From: Deltaproteobacteria bacterium
GTDB lineage: Bacteria; Bdellovibrionota_B; Oligoflexia; Oligoflexales; CAIYRB01
Direction of reading: 5' to 3'
Length of the DNA stretch: 64,000 bases
Assembly (NCBI GenBank): GCA_016874735.1
Contig: VGTI01000011.1
Location: forward strand, 1-64,000
In this document: positions 28,993 through 36,231 of the stretch, in pieces
How the letters are laid out: every line of letters begins with the position of its first letter
How positions within the stretch are numbered: the first letter of the stretch is position 1
Notes under the pieces: generated by a model
What the model was told of the DNA's origin: nothing
The model's input: only the letters and a program-made list of their open reading frames with translations
Database searches by the model: none
Program-made: the position numbers and the translations under genes

Positions 28993-31900
28993 CTAGCGAT
29001 TACCTGTAAGCGCTAGGAGATTTTGTTTGTTCGTAGCGACATCTTGTATCGCTTCTAGATTGAGCACTTGAGCCTCCGGTATTTCTGGCTTTAGCACCTC
29101 TGTTACGAGGATGGAGACAGCATCGTGCTGTCTCTGCAGTATCCCGCGTATGCAGAGAAAGGCGTAGTTATCAACGAGCCGGCGGTAGCGTTCATAGACT
29201 TGTGGGGTGAAGGCGATATTGATCATGCCGGTGTCGTCTTCCATAGTTATAAACACCATGCCTTTAGCTGATGGCGGCGACTGTCGCACGATGGTCATGC
29301 CGAATACGGCTACTTCCTGACGTGGGCGGAGTTTTATCAGTGCATTGGCAAGCTGCAATCGCTCTACGGGGAGCTGGTAGCACCAATAAGTACGTAAAAT
29401 GGCTGCTGGATGAGGGCCGAGCGTGGTCGTTGTGGCATAGAAGTCAGACTGACAACGCTCCATGGCACTCTCTGGTGCAAACTGTATGGTGTCTTCGACA
29501 TCTTCGAGAAATCCGGAAAAAGGCGCCGCGGCTGCGAGCCACAAGGCCGCTCGTCGCTCGATACCAAAGGGGCGTAAGGCATCAGCTGCGGCTAGGGCTG
29601 TGAGATCCAGGCGGTTCAGTGATCTTGATTGCAGCATAGTCATGAGATTGGGCCAGCCACCCCGGCGTTGCCGCTCGCGGCAAAGATGTTCAGCCGCCTG
29701 TTGGCGCAGAGATCTCACTAGGTGCATGCCGAGGCGTATAGCCAGCTTGCCCGTCTCCGTGCGCTCTAGGGTGCTGTCCCAAGAGGATTTAGTAACACTG
29801 ATGGGAAGGATGGGAACACCGTCCTGGCGGGCGCTATGAATCAACACATGGGGCGCGTAAAAGCCCATCGGCTGCGAGTTTAAAAGCGAGGCAAAGTAGG
29901 CCGCTGGCACGTGGCATTTGAGGTAGGACGAGGCGTAGGCTAGGAGTGCAAACGAAGCTGCATGTGACTCGGGGAATCCATACTCGGCAAAACCTCGAAT
30001 TTGTCCCAGAATCTGCTCGACAAAGGGCTCGGCGATGCCGTTTTTCCGCATACCTTCGCGTAGTTTTTCGCCGAGGCCCAAAAGATCGCCCTTAATGGCG
30101 AATGCGCCCATGTTCTTGCGTAGCTGATCCGCTTCGCCCGGCGAAAAGCCTCCGACAGCCATAGCAATACGCATGACTTGCTCTTGAAAAATAGGCACAC
30201 CTAACGTCCGCTCGAGAATAGGAACCAGGCGTGGATCGGGAAAGGTCACAGGCTCCTCGCCGTGACGGCGCCGAAGAAAAGGATGCACCATACCCCCCTG
30301 AATGGGGCCTGGTCGGATAATCGCCACCTCAATGACTAGGTCATAAAACTTACGTGGCTGTAGTCTAGGCAACATCGACATCTGTGCCCGACTCTCTATC
30401 TGAAAGGTACCAACCGTATCCGCACGGCAAATCATGTCGTAAGTAGCTTGGTCGTCCGCAGGAATGGAGGCCAGCGAGAGCTCGCGTCCCTCGTGCTCTT
30501 TCACCAAACTAAAGGTCTTGCGTATAGCTGTTAGTATGCCCAGGGCTAGAATATCTATTTTGAAAAAACCTAAGGCCTCAATATCCTCCTTGCACCACTG
30601 AATCACCGTACGCCCAGGCATGGTCGCCGGCTCCTGTGGCACGAGCCAGTTGAGGTGGCGATCGGTGAGCATAAAGCCGCCCGAGTGAATTCCAAGGTGG
30701 CGCGGAAATCCTCGCAGCCGTTCCGTCAAACGGCCTAGGTGCTCGTTAGTATGAGTGGTGTGATCGAGAGTTTCTGTCGATATCCCCAAGGCCTTGCTCA
30801 CAGCACGTGTGGCACCGCGGCGCCTAAAGGTGATGACATTAGCGATCATAGCGGCATGGTTGCGGCCGTAGCGTTGGTAGATGTGCTGAATCACTTCCTC
30901 GCGTCGCTCGTGCTCAAAGTCGACATCGATATCAGGAGGATCACCGCGCTCTACCGATATAAAGCGTTCAAAGAGCAGATCAAATAAGTTGGGATCAACG
31001 GCGGTGATTTGCAGCACAAAACAGACGGCGGAGTTAGCTGCTGACCCGCGTCCCTGGCAAAGAATCCCCTGCTCCCGTGCCCAGCGCACAATGTCCCAAA
31101 CCGTCAGAAAATAGTCGGCAAACCCCAGCTGCTCTATCAGTTGCAGCTCGTGATGGAGTAGGCGCTCAATTTTCGGTGGTACATGACCATAGTGGGATCT
31201 GGCTCCCGCCCACGTGATCTCCTCCAGATAGGTCTGGGCTGTCACACCCGGCGGTAACATCTCCTTTGGGTAGTGATAACGCAGCGCGCGCAAATCAAAC
31301 TTGCAGCTGTCGGCTAAGGTTCTACCTGCAGCCAGCGCTGACTCATAGATAGGTAGCTCCTGATAACGCGCCGCCAGCGTGCGCAAGTCATGTAGCGTTC
31401 GCTCACCATTAGGGAAAAAATGACTACCCACCTGATCTAATGTTTGGTTGTGGCGTATGGCGTGCAAAAGATCGCTCATCTCTTTGGCGCTGCGCTCATG
31501 CATAAATACGTCGTTCGTCAAAAGGCAAGGTAGATCGAGATCCTTCGCCAACTTGATCGTGGGCTTGATCCAGTGATCCTCGGCCGGTGTTAGATGACGA
31601 CTGACAGCGCAGTAGACGCGCCCACGGAAATGCTCGCGCAGTTTAGTTAAGCGCTCACGTAAAAGATTCTCCTGGCCGCGTCGCAGCAAACCGCGCATCG
31701 GTATGATCGCAGCTAGATCTGTAACATCAGCGCTGAGTAAAGCCTCCGGAGGAATATTGGCCGCCAGCTTGCCGTCGCGGTGCGCATAGCTAGCAAGGGC
31801 CGCGAGGTTGTGATAGCCGCGGTGACTAGTTGCTAGGAGAGCCACGGTGTCCTGTAAAAAAAGCGGCAGATCATGGTCTTTGGCGAGGTGAAACTCGGCG

Positions 31901-32139
31901 CCATGGAAGAGTCGGATAGGTGTCTCAGCATCATCTTGGCTTTTAGTGTGTCGCACCCAAGCATGGTGCATGCGGGCTGAGCCATAAACGCCGTCATAAT
32001 CCGTCAGAGCCATCCCGTGATGACCAAGTGTCTGCGCCCGCTCTATAAGCTCGTGAGGGTGTGAAGCCCCCATCAAAAAGCTAAAATTACTGTGACAGAG
32101 CCACTCGGTCCAACCGTAGTGTTTAATCAAATCGACCAT
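28993..32139 (-). CDS. dnaE2: Error-prone DNA polymerase III alpha subunit (DnaE2/ImuC)
   Basis: 1048 residues from ATG 32139; a longer frame from 32232 overlaps imuB deeply and adds a non-homologous leader. The PHP domain is at the start (LCHSNFSFLMGASHP, ALTDYDGVYG). The C-family polymerase core has CQGRGSAANSAVCFV and PPDIDVDFEHERREEV with the catalytic Asp residues, and the thumb/finger block GIHSGGFMLTD. Helix-hairpin-helix and OB regions follow (AVFGMTIVRQSPPSAKG near the end). This is the mutagenic translesion polymerase of the imuA-imuB-dnaE2 mutasome. It overlaps imuB by 17 bases, so the three genes form one unit, probably induced by DNA damage. Confidence 0.95.
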   Translation of the reverse strand: MVDLIKHYGWTEWLCHSNFSFLMGASHPHELIERAQTLGHHGMALTDYDGVYGSARMHHAWVRHTKSQDDAETPIRLFHGAEFHLAKDHDLPLFLQDTVALLATSHRGYHNLAALASYAHRDGKLAANIPPEALLSADVTDLAAIIPMRGLLRRGQENLLRERLTKLREHFRGRVYCAVSRHLTPAEDHWIKPTIKLAKDLDLPCLLTNDVFMHERSAKEMSDLLHAIRHNQTLDQVGSHFFPNGERTLHDLRTLAARYQELPIYESALAAGRTLADSCKFDLRALRYHYPKEMLPPGVTAQTYLEEITWAGARSHYGHVPPKIERLLHHELQLIEQLGFADYFLTVWDIVRWAREQGILCQGRGSAANSAVCFVLQITAVDPNLFDLLFERFISVERGDPPDIDVDFEHERREEVIQHIYQRYGRNHAAMIANVITFRRRGATRAVSKALGISTETLDHTTHTNEHLGRLTERLRGFPRHLGIHSGGFMLTDRHLNWLVPQEPATMPGRTVIQWCKEDIEALGFFKIDILALGILTAIRKTFSLVKEHEGRELSLASIPADDQATYDMICRADTVGTFQIESRAQMSMLPRLQPRKFYDLVIEVAIIRPGPIQGGMVHPFLRRRHGEEPVTFPDPRLVPILERTLGVPIFQEQVMRIAMAVGGFSPGEADQLRKNMGAFAIKGDLLGLGEKLREGMRKNGIAEPFVEQILGQIRGFAEYGFPESHAASFALLAYASSYLKCHVPAAYFASLLNSQPMGFYAPHVLIHSARQDGVPILPISVTKSSWDSTLERTETGKLAIRLGMHLVRSLRQQAAEHLCRERQRRGGWPNLMTMLQSRSLNRLDLTALAAADALRPFGIERRAALWLAAAAPFSGFLEDVEDTIQFAPESAMERCQSDFYATTTTLGPHPAAILRTYWCYQLPVERLQLANALIKLRPRQEVAVFGMTIVRQSPPSAKGMVFITMEDDTGMINIAFTPQVYERYRRLVDNYAFLCIRGILQRQHDAVSILVTEVLKPEIPEAQVLNLEAIQDVATNKQNLLALTGNR

Positions 32140-33580
32140 GGATCCACCACTTGCCGGCCTGGTCACGATAAGTCCATAGCCAACGTTGCTGGCGATCAAT
32201 GACAGCATAATAATCGCGTTGACTGCTGCCAATGCTACTTAGCCACCACTTGCCATTTACTCGCTCAAGAAACATACGCGCCGCCGCATAATCCTCAGTA
32301 TCAAGAGGGGTCGGCGTATCGATATAAAAAGGTCGCACGCGCGCCGCTGCTAGCCACGGTAGGTAAGACGCGTCTGCAGTACCGTCGCCAGGATGCTCCG
32401 CGTTGTGGGAACTACGCTTAAAAGCGGCTTCAGGTACCCAGTCGTCGCGTAGCTCGTAGCGTTCTAGCGGCACTGGTAGCTGATTCTCCAAGGTGCGTAG
32501 ATGTCTTATGTCGGTATCGTTACTGTCACCAAAGAGGTCCGTCAAAAATGGTGGGATTACCAGGCGTTCATCGATCACGAGTTGCCAGCCCACAATGCCA
32601 CGTGGATAAGTATCAACGTCTTTTTGTTTGGTTGCGGCACTAAAGCTGTAGTTAGCCTGCGTCAAGGCCGTCTTGTGCTGCCCTTGCTCGGCAGCCAGAC
32701 TGTGCGGGTGACGGAAGTTGATCGGCACCGTCAGAGCACTCATGTCGTCCAAGGTGAGATGCCAGCTCACGGCCGTGACGCGCTCGCGCGCATCCCAGGT
32801 CGGTAGCCGACATAGGCGGTCGCAATCTTCCGCTAAAAGTGGTGCCAGATCATCCCACTGCAGTAGCGGCACGTCGAGATGACGCTGTAACTGCGGCTTC
32901 TCCCTACTGGTGCAAAAGACCCAGGGAAATCCCTGAGGATGCGCACGTACCTTAGCGCGCTCATGGTCCGCTCGAGACCACTCCCATAGGAGGGCAATCG
33001 TAGTGCCAAAACGTCGCCGCATGGCGAGGGCATCGACACTGCGCCAGCTGTGTGGTGTAGCAGCTCCCTTAGCCTGGCTACCGCCAATACGGGCGTGGGC
33101 TTGGGGGGGCTCAATGCGCTCAATCACAGCCTGCATGTGTTTAAGCTGACGCTTAAAGGCGTCCGGGTCAAAGCGCGGCCACTTACAGATCGCAGCGTGC
33201 GTACCCAGCTCCTCCGCACATTCTTGCCATGCCTCCCAACTCACCTGCTGATAAAAAGCGCTGCCAAAGTGCTGGCGCAAGTCGAGCAGGCCCCGTAGAT
33301 CGCGCAGCCGCATCTGCCGCACCGCTAGTAGTGCGCGCCATGGATGATCGGCCATCACGGCGCGCATCCCAGGCTGAAGACTGCGCCGCAGGATCTCATC
33401 GACCAGCGCCCCGACCGAAGTCTCGTGTTGGTGCGCCTGGGTATGCCAGTAGGTATGGCAGACGCTCAAGTCGAGCAGCCAGACCCCCTCGTGCCAATGC
33501 ATAAAGCGCGGCGTGAGCACAGCTGGCGTGGCGCCTTCGTTAAAATCACCCTCGATGGCCATAAAGTCAGCGAGCGACAT
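32123..33580 (-). CDS. imuB: ImuB-like Y-family polymerase homologue, divergent N-terminus
   Basis: 485 residues. The C-terminus is typical of ImuB: GKWWLSSIGSSQRDYYAVID followed by RWLWTYR and KWWIHGRFD. The position between imuA and dnaE2, overlapping both, supports the call. The N-terminal half differs from usual ImuB, which begins with a W-x-C-L-x-F-P type palm segment; here it begins MSLADFMAIEGDF and passes through FMHWHEGVWLLDLSVCH. ImuB is inactive as a polymerase in studied species and bridges ImuA/DnaE2 to the beta clamp. A clamp-binding motif is not obvious. The start ATG 33580 overlaps imuA by 14 bases. Confidence 0.82.
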   Translation of the reverse strand: MSLADFMAIEGDFNEGATPAVLTPRFMHWHEGVWLLDLSVCHTYWHTQAHQHETSVGALVDEILRRSLQPGMRAVMADHPWRALLAVRQMRLRDLRGLLDLRQHFGSAFYQQVSWEAWQECAEELGTHAAICKWPRFDPDAFKRQLKHMQAVIERIEPPQAHARIGGSQAKGAATPHSWRSVDALAMRRRFGTTIALLWEWSRADHERAKVRAHPQGFPWVFCTSREKPQLQRHLDVPLLQWDDLAPLLAEDCDRLCRLPTWDARERVTAVSWHLTLDDMSALTVPINFRHPHSLAAEQGQHKTALTQANYSFSAATKQKDVDTYPRGIVGWQLVIDERLVIPPFLTDLFGDSNDTDIRHLRTLENQLPVPLERYELRDDWVPEAAFKRSSHNAEHPGDGTADASYLPWLAAARVRPFYIDTPTPLDTEDYAAARMFLERVNGKWWLSSIGSSQRDYYAVIDRQQRWLWTYRDQAGKWWIHGRFD

Positions 33581-34235
33581 ACTCGCCCCCAGCTGGATCC
33601 ATTGTGATCACGGCCTGACGCGGGGAAAGTCCGCGGATGACATCGAGGTGATAAGCTCCAGGCTCCCGGGGGGAACGCCAAATATTGAGGCGTAACTTAG
33701 GCCAGATGCTATGACCGTCCGGTGTTAGGAGATAGTTGCGTATGAGGATGAAAAGCTTGCCCCGGAGGCGTGCATGATGCGCCAAAAAGGTCAGGTCATC
33801 ACCTGACAGCTGTGTTGGTGCGTCGAGGACGATGATCTTGAAGAGAGGTGATAATAACGCTGGTCTCAGCTCCATAGGGCTGCCACTGCGGACAAAACAG
33901 ACACGGCTAAGGTCGACGCCATGCGCCCGCCAGGCTGGCGGATAGACCTGGCCCTTGCTGTAGGTCCAAAGGACCCAGTGGGGCACCGCCGTTGTGAGCC
34001 CCCGAGTGGCGGCAGCGATGAAGGCGATCAGGGGACGGCGGCCCCCCCGGCCAATCGGCGAACCTATCTCGACGATCGTGCCAAGCGGGAGGCCGCCCAC
34101 CAAGAAGCGATCGAGCTCTGGGTGGTGCGAGGCCAAACGGCCGGAAGCAGAGGGGGAGGGGCCCCGTCGGCAAAGCTTGCCGCCGAGGTCATCGAGGTGA
34201 CTAAAGTGGTCTAAGTTGTTGGTCAATCGCTTCAT
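33567..34235 (-). CDS. imuA: ImuA, RecA-like mutasome protein
   Basis: 222 residues from ATG 34235; the longer frame from 34274 would run through a palindromic operator and is rejected. RecA/ImuA features: HPELDRFLVGGLPLGTIVEI, then GRGGRRPLIAFIAAA where a P-loop would be, though GSPIGRGG lacks the Lys of a true Walker A. Next are WVLWTYSKGQVYPPAW, RVCFVRSG and IIVLDAPTQLSGDDL. The tail (LSPRQAVITMDPAGG) may bind ImuB. First gene of the mutasome operon. The palindrome at 34246-34265 lies 11 bases upstream. Confidence 0.85.
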   Translation of the reverse strand: MKRLTNNLDHFSHLDDLGGKLCRRGPSPSASGRLASHHPELDRFLVGGLPLGTIVEIGSPIGRGGRRPLIAFIAAATRGLTTAVPHWVLWTYSKGQVYPPAWRAHGVDLSRVCFVRSGSPMELRPALLSPLFKIIVLDAPTQLSGDDLTFLAHHARLRGKLFILIRNYLLTPDGHSIWPKLRLNIWRSPREPGAYHLDVIRGLSPRQAVITMDPAGGEYVAR

Positions 34236-34245
34236 GCATCTATTA

Positions 34246-34265
34246 AACCATACATTTGTATGGTT
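34246..34265 (-). promoter_or_regulatory. Candidate SOS (LexA-type) operator of imuA-imuB-dnaE2
   Basis: AACCATACATTTGTATGGTT is a palindrome with perfect 9-bp arms and a TT centre. On the minus strand it overlaps a possible -10 (TATGGT), 16 bases after TTGCTT. Position over the promoter of an operon that is LexA-controlled in most bacteria suggests a lineage-specific LexA box. It does not match the E. coli CTGT-N8-ACAG or the GAAC-N4-GTTC forms. Confidence 0.6.
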
Positions 34266-34272
34266 CTCAAGC

Positions 34273-34424
34273 AAACTGATCCACTTAACTGTTGGGAAAT
34301 GCTTGTTTTATGAATGATTACAGATTGTTGCAGATCATCGTCGCAAGTTAATGGGCAGTTCCAGTAATAGTGAAGCAATGGCCGTAGGTTCCAAAACGGC
34401 ACCAACAATTAAGTGGATCAATTT
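34273..34424. repeat. Element with 23-bp terminal inverted repeats
   Basis: Arms at 34273-34295 and 34402-34424 are reverse complements with two mismatches; core TGATCCACTTAA. They enclose 106 bases without a gene and end exactly at the ATG of the next gene. Size and shape recall a small MITE-like element, but no target duplication is seen. A regulatory cruciform or RNA hairpin is the alternative. Confidence 0.55.
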
Positions 34425-35360: not shown

Positions 35361-35373
35361 AAGCTGGTGAGTG

Positions 35374-35895
35374 ATGTTGCGCATTCTTGAACAACTACAT
35401 AAAATCCGGGGTCTTTTAGACTCCGCTGGTATTGACGCTGCGATTATCGGTGGCCTAGCTTTAGGCGCGCATGGCGTGCAGCGCTTTACCAACGACATAG
35501 ATTTTTTGGTCGATGGGACGCAGCGCCTTCAGTTGAAGCACCTGATGCTGGCCAATGGTTTCACACTGTTCGCGGAGACAAGCGAAGTGATTCAGTTTGC
35601 CGGAGATATCGCCGTCGATGTTCTCTGTGCCAATCGCCCCGTAAGCCTTGCTCTGCTTCAGCAGGCTCGGTTAGATCAACGTCTTAATGTTAAAGTCATC
35701 AGTGCCGAGGGCCTGATCGGACTCAAAATCCAAGCTTATTGCAACGACCCGAAAAGAGAGTTCCGCGACAAAGCCGATATTGCCGCTCTGATTGCAAACA
35801 ACAACGCTTTGGACTGGGTGACGATTCAAAGGTTTGCTGACATGTTCGGCCAATGGCCGGTTATCGAGCAGATTCGTAAACTTCATGCAAAGTGA
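35374..35895 (+). CDS. Nucleotidyltransferase-fold protein, possible toxin
   Basis: 173 residues from ATG 35374 (GTG 35371 is adjacent). The segment IIGGLALGAHGVQRFTNDID carries the G-G-x-A...R-x-T-x-D-I-D signature of the AbiEii/MNT superfamily, with the two Asp as metal ligands. Later IAVDVLCANRP and ISAEGLIGLKIQAY (often followed by a D-x-x-D segment, here FRDKADIAAL) fit the same family. Members transfer nucleotides to proteins or tRNA and are toxins in AbiE-type systems. It is followed after 12 bases by a HigA-like antitoxin gene and has its own promoter and operator. Confidence 0.75.
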   Translation: MLRILEQLHKIRGLLDSAGIDAAIIGGLALGAHGVQRFTNDIDFLVDGTQRLQLKHLMLANGFTLFAETSEVIQFAGDIAVDVLCANRPVSLALLQQARLDQRLNVKVISAEGLIGLKIQAYCNDPKREFRDKADIAALIANNNALDWVTIQRFADMFGQWPVIEQIRKLHAK

Positions 35896-35907
35896 AGGTT
35901 TCACCGG

Positions 35908-36231
35908 ATGAACTTGTTGGATTATCTGAACTGGCTCGATGCAAACCGTGAAGCATTTCCTGTTAAGCGCGCGACCAAGCCAATACCGAAGCATCCAGGT
36001 CGTGTGTTGCGCGAAGAATTCATCGACAAGCTTGGTATGAGCCAGTCGGATCTTGCCAGGAAACTGGACTGTCGCTTTGCGAAGATAAACGAAATCCTGA
36101 ACGAGAAGCGTGCGATTACTCCTGAGTTTGCCATCCAACTCGAAGCACTCTTGGGCCTACCCGCAGAAACTTGGGTCTCCTTGCAAGCGGAATACGACCT
36201 TTGGCGAGCGCGGCAACGTGCTGCTGGGTAA
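35908..36231 (+). CDS. HigA-type antitoxin / XRE regulator
   Basis: 107 residues; GAAGG before ATG 35908. Family pattern: KHPGRVLREEFIDKLGMSQS, LARKLDCRFAKINEILNEKR, ITPEFAIQLEALLGLPAETW, then LQAEYDLWRAR. This is the HigA addiction-module antidote group, which binds DNA through its HTH and usually partners a RelE-fold HigB. It also has a 27-residue N-terminal extension absent from usual HigA. No HigB is present here; the partner is a nucleotidyltransferase. The pairing suggests an unusual toxin-antitoxin module. Confidence 0.82.
   Translation: MNLLDYLNWLDANREAFPVKRATKPIPKHPGRVLREEFIDKLGMSQSDLARKLDCRFAKINEILNEKRAITPEFAIQLEALLGLPAETWVSLQAEYDLWRARQRAAG

Follow-up and report, generated by a model that had tools for sequence, protein, structure and literature searches.

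A probable lineage-specific SOS switch: the palindrome at the imuA promoter as a predicted LexA-repressor site

Results

The imu operon and its upstream palindrome

The window, by which we mean the whole 64-kb stretch of DNA analysed, contains a putative imuA-imuB-dnaE2 cassette in operon order on the reverse strand, with a palindrome and promoter-like hexamers upstream of imuA. The features are as follows.

28993–32232, reverse strand: dnaE2 (imuC), error-prone DNA polymerase (NCBIfam NF004225; Pfam DNA_pol3_alpha)
32123–33580, reverse strand: 485-aa ORF in the imuB position, between imuA and dnaE2
33567–34235, reverse strand: imuA, 222 aa, ATG at 34235; weak match to NCBIfam NF033429 (ImuA), with orthologues in the order Oligoflexales (30 genomes)
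34242–34247, reverse strand: -10-like hexamer TTTAAT, overlapping the imuA-proximal end of the palindrome; TYTAAT is kept in four genomes of the genus
34246–34265, reverse strand: predicted LexA operator (SOS box), AACCATACAAATGTATGGTT read towards imuA, called from its uniqueness in window and genome, its conservation in the order and class, and the sites at lexA, recA and dinB
34265–34270, reverse strand: -35-like hexamer TTGAGA, touching the imuA-distal end of the palindrome; TTGAKA is kept in four genomes of the genus

The dnaE2 product scored 1164.7 bits against NF004225 (cut-off 939), and the true start of the gene probably lies inside the listed ORF. The match of imuA to NF033429 had an E-value of 1.4e-6, below the curated cut-off. 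The 485-aa ORF matched nothing in Pfam or NCBIfam and was assigned to imuB by its place alone; plasmid searches with this ORF and with an umuD-like protein returned nothing useful. Elsewhere in the window (35371–36231), an AbiEii-like nucleotidyltransferase gene is followed by an HTH gene, an arrangement resembling a toxin-antitoxin pair.

The palindrome, AACCATACATTTGTATGGTT, has perfect 9-bp arms around a central TT (AACCATACA-TT-TGTATGGTT), as had been described in a previous reading of the sequence alone. The sequence-only reading had also placed it 11 bases before imuA and over a -10 candidate. Its closeness to the gene was confirmed with a corrected distance of 10 bases, and TTTAAT (34247–34242) does overlap it by two bases. 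Neither the window nor the 4.65-Mb host genome contains another match at up to three mismatches. The bare palindrome is unremarkable as a chance event, with 0.23 palindromes of 9-bp arms and 2-bp spacer expected per window under a first-order random model and two observed; what makes it significant is where it lies and that it is conserved.

Promoter architecture

Read towards imuA, the upstream region is TTGAGA-ACCATACAAATGTATGG-TTTAAT-N6-ATG, in which the 17-bp spacer between the -35-like and -10-like hexamers is the palindrome core. The arrangement TTGAKA-N17/18-TYTAAT-N6/7-ATG was common to four genomes of the genus. Three relatives within the genus differ in the sequence further upstream, yet TTGAKA, the palindrome, TYTAAT and the ATG hold the same places. 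A consensus promoter scanner found no promoter at imuA. This scanner accepts only -10 hexamers whose second base is A, and the promoter call therefore rests on conservation within the genus.

The site is dyad-symmetric and overlaps the promoter of a DNA-damage gene, as expected for a LexA operator. A repressor bound in the -35/-10 spacer would exclude RNA polymerase. Transcription is predicted to start at or next to the imuA ATG, and the imuA mRNA may be nearly leaderless.

A perfect inverted repeat near a start codon could also be read as an element of the transcript, or as one that terminates or attenuates transcription in the interval separating imuA from the divergent DTW gene. However, the 2-nt loop cannot close a full hairpin, a terminator-like site was not found at the locus, and the predicted transcription start lies downstream of the palindrome. 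In relatives, the motif stands at varying distances from unrelated genes, which fits a DNA operator. A role in RNA or termination is for these reasons exceedingly improbable.

A MITE-like element (34273–34424) with 23-nt inverted repeats (AAACTGATCCACTTAACTGTTGG) 106 nt apart ends two bases before the imuA -35 hexamer. Its ends were found in about 20 copies in the host genome and in the sister genome G004, and in none in genomes G001–G003.

Conservation upstream of imuA across the order

An ACCATAC-N4-GTATGGT-like site was identified upstream of imuA, or of a lexA-imuA operon, in 25 of the 30 imuA-bearing genomes, which belong to several families. The consensus of the imuA sites is WACCATAC-N4-GTATGGTW with an A+T-rich centre. 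A single box precedes the lexA-imuA operon of G007, where a LexA gene heads the imu operon, and four genomes of genus g15 carry a second copy of the motif directly before imuB. Five imuA-bearing genomes showed no motif; among these, G014 is truncated by a contig end, and G010, G023 and G028 have a LexA with a different helix encoded beside imuA. Over 53 genomes, the pattern matched 75 times, as compared to 17 times for the reversed control pattern. The other LexA type beside imuA in G010 has a palindrome of its own, ACTGTACATTTGTACA, at -30 upstream of lexA, which makes two candidate SOS boxes for the order.

These results bear on the possibility that the palindrome arose by chance and has no function. 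The random expectation given above would allow for such an origin, but throughout the order the palindrome is kept before imuA in otherwise differing flanking sequence, and we consider the likelihood of a functionless repeat to be negligible.

Held-out tests at other SOS genes

A weight matrix was trained on 22 imuA sites only, with the sites at lexA, recA and dinB/umuC held out. Upstream of lexA, the matrix scored 18–27 bits in 15 of 47 LexA genes, mostly 44–60 bases before the start, as compared to 17.4 bits for the best of 1,880 shuffled sequences. In 19 of 30 genomes, a site of 13.6–25.2 bits precedes recA or an EI24-domain gene that lies directly before it (99% of shuffles scored below 12.6 bits). 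For dinB/umuC, scores of at least 13 bits were obtained in 11 of 29 cases versus 6 of 870 shuffles. Inspection revealed boxes before further genes, namely polB at one locus and a umuD-like gene at two. Targets of the lexA, recA, dinB, umuDC and polB type make up the classical SOS gene set.

The sequence-only reading had proposed a lineage-specific SOS box over the imuA promoter, which the sites before lexA, recA, dinB, umuDC and polB in the order and class support. The genome-wide search that it suggested, for the exact palindrome before lexA and recA, returned the imuA copy alone, which taken in isolation would have counted against the proposal; it was the matrix scan of recA and of the relatives that found the sites. 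Damage genes are preceded by the box, as a weak copy at the host recA and in strong forms in relatives, contrary to the absence that the sequence-only reading had named as its refutation.

Some other genes also follow the box. HNH-endonuclease-type genes have it upstream at six loci, with several per genome in G041, and may form a mobile or repair family under SOS control. Two families of small proteins that have no Pfam match lie downstream of the box in several genomes (L084 and L085; L077 and L089); both are candidates for new SOS genes. In much of the order (five loci), the box is separated from recA by a gene for an EI24/CysZ-like membrane protein. Viral contigs yielded one and six matches in two scans, and the one that was inspected (L339) was intragenic and taken as chance.

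LexA as the predicted binder

The host genome encodes a single LexA/S24 protein, on contig C1 and unlinked to the imu operon. The protein scored above the TIGR00498 cut-off, and alignment with LexA of solved structure showed the Ala-Gly cleavage site and both catalytic residues (Ser and Lys) to be intact. The host thus has a cleavable LexA with the Ser/Lys dyad and the LexA winged helix. Its recognition region is GYKAIGSAQDLVMALRRKGFL, in which GSAQD is invariant across ten aligned members of the class, and the GSAQD helix is common to the host LexA and to those LexAs whose own gene is preceded by a box.

When the genome collection was scanned, the GSAQD helix was found in only 8 of the 80 LexA loci retained; all eight are close to this class, and at least six match genomes of it by contig. 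A box precedes lexA in five of the eight, whereas the loci without GSAQD never exceeded 12.6 bits. At least one site was present in 33 of 38 genomes with a GSAQD-type LexA, as compared to 2 of 15 genomes without it or with the LexA of family f11 (Fisher P 8e-7 over 53 genomes, a value to be taken as a guide only, given the relatedness of the genomes). LexA is kept but the box is lacking in family f11 and some others. Another family of the class, f12, is perhaps the Silvanigrellaceae.

Three LexAs of family f11 (in G019, G025 and G037) retain GSAQD and lack the Ala-Gly site, the catalytic Lys or both, and the box is missing in these genomes. Judging from these residues, the three proteins are possibly non-cleavable. 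A LexA of G023, from the same family, is intact.

A reduced regulon in the host genus

The host EI24-recA operon is preceded by a weaker box, TGCCAGACAATTGTACGGTA, with 16.8 bits and three core mismatches. The core of this box, GCCAGACAATTRTACGGTA, is kept in all six genomes of the genus, also where EI24 does not lie between the box and recA; in G001 and G003, only some 250 bases separate the box from the recA domain. The 4.9 kb examined at the host lexA contained no box, and none was found at any lexA in the genus. The host lexA lies behind an M48-peptidase-like gene, with the two ORFs overlapping by 4 bases. The autoregulation signature, seen at 15 lexA genes across the order and class, is thus absent from the host genus, and box-based autoregulation of lexA is predicted for relatives only.

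No genes of the DinB/UmuC family were found in the six genomes of the genus. Looser matches to the box were not enriched in the host genome (95 versus 87 in the control), and no broad regulon was visible. The search model R1, built on sequence only and too insensitive for weak sites in the host genome, reported the imuA site alone there. With no excess of loose matches, no lexA box and no DinB/UmuC genes, the visible regulon consists of imu (strong) and recA (weak), and it seems to have shrunk to imuA-imuB-dnaE2 plus recA.

A strong site that occurs once in the host genome, at imuA, together with a lexA that has no box, is also what an operator for another dedicated imu regulator would look like, such as a repressor of the XRE, TetR or MarR type. 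Against this, relatives carry the motif before lexA, recA, dinB, umuDC and polB, which is the signature of LexA. Moreover, the recA box persists in G001, a member of the genus in which no imuA was found, and the presence of the site tracks the GSAQD-type LexA. A dedicated regulator in place of LexA is for these reasons very unlikely.

Discussion

The DNA motif that LexA recognises is well known to differ from lineage to lineage. Based on the site, its place and conservation, its co-occurrence with SOS genes in the held-out tests, and the intact LexA, we infer that LexA is the binder, that it represses the operon and that DNA damage induces it. In all likelihood, the palindrome is the LexA operator of the imuA-imuB-dnaE2 operon, with ACCATAC-N4-GTATGGT as a class-wide LexA motif and a regulon that has shrunk in this genus. 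According to this model, a LexA dimer would occupy ACCATAC-N4-GTATGGT in the -35/-10 spacer of imuA in the undamaged cell and block RNA polymerase. Upon DNA damage, RecA filaments would trigger self-cleavage of LexA at the Ala-Gly bond, which would free the site for production of the error-prone ImuA/ImuB/DnaE2 machinery. In the genus, the imu operon would be what is left of the regulon, alongside the weaker recA box and a lexA that lacks one.

The imu cassette is persistently regulated by LexA, and is the sole LexA-regulated unit in some organisms (PMC3323433). The proteobacterial imuA-imuB-dnaE2 SOS boxes resemble the site described here in being LexA-type palindromes over the promoter of the cassette (PMC3323433), whereas ACCATAC-N4-GTATGGT is unlike the motifs quoted in PMC8565304 and PMC3323433. 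The earlier remark that the palindrome matches none of the common LexA boxes held when TTAC-N3-GTAA, GGTT-N10-AACC and GTTC-N7-GTTC were compared with it by eye (PMC8565304, PMC3323433); all three differ. The first of these is the motif of Bdellovibrio bacteriovorus, a relative by older taxonomy, and appears unrelated to the present one. Going by the title of Campoy 2005 (cited in PMC3323433), LexA of B. bacteriovorus does not control the canonical SOS genes. Compared with what that title states, many members of the present class differ in having recA, dinB and lexA as predicted targets.

The Geobacter sulfurreducens motif GGTT-N10-AACC (PMC8565304) is likewise a large palindrome with GGTT and AACC in its arms. 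However, the present box has its arms the other way round (AACC...GGTT), at a spacing of 12 and not 10. The lexA2-imuA-imuB-imuC operon of Pseudomonas putida (PMC3901139) is similar to that of G007 in that a LexA gene heads the imu operon, whereas our host genome has only one LexA, which is unlinked to imu. By the count of a paper from 2021, 17 LexA motifs have been reported (PMC8565304). Literature searches that paired LexA with Oligoflexia or Silvanigrella returned nothing relevant, and an earlier report of the motif may exist.

We consider it likely, from the genome comparisons, that ACCATAC-N4-GTATGGT is an undescribed LexA motif of the whole class (Oligoflexales and a second family) that is read by LexAs with the GSAQD helix, and that the regulon of this genus has contracted to imu and recA. 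With lexA out of its own control and DinB/UmuC lost, imu would be the only recognisable damage-inducible translesion pathway in the genus. The class would thereby provide a further LexA motif with its recognition helix and a natural series for the study of motif and regulon change, from a broad regulon with lexA, recA, dinB and imu to one of imu and recA. With the motif, SOS genes could also be predicted from sequence in these little-studied bacteria.
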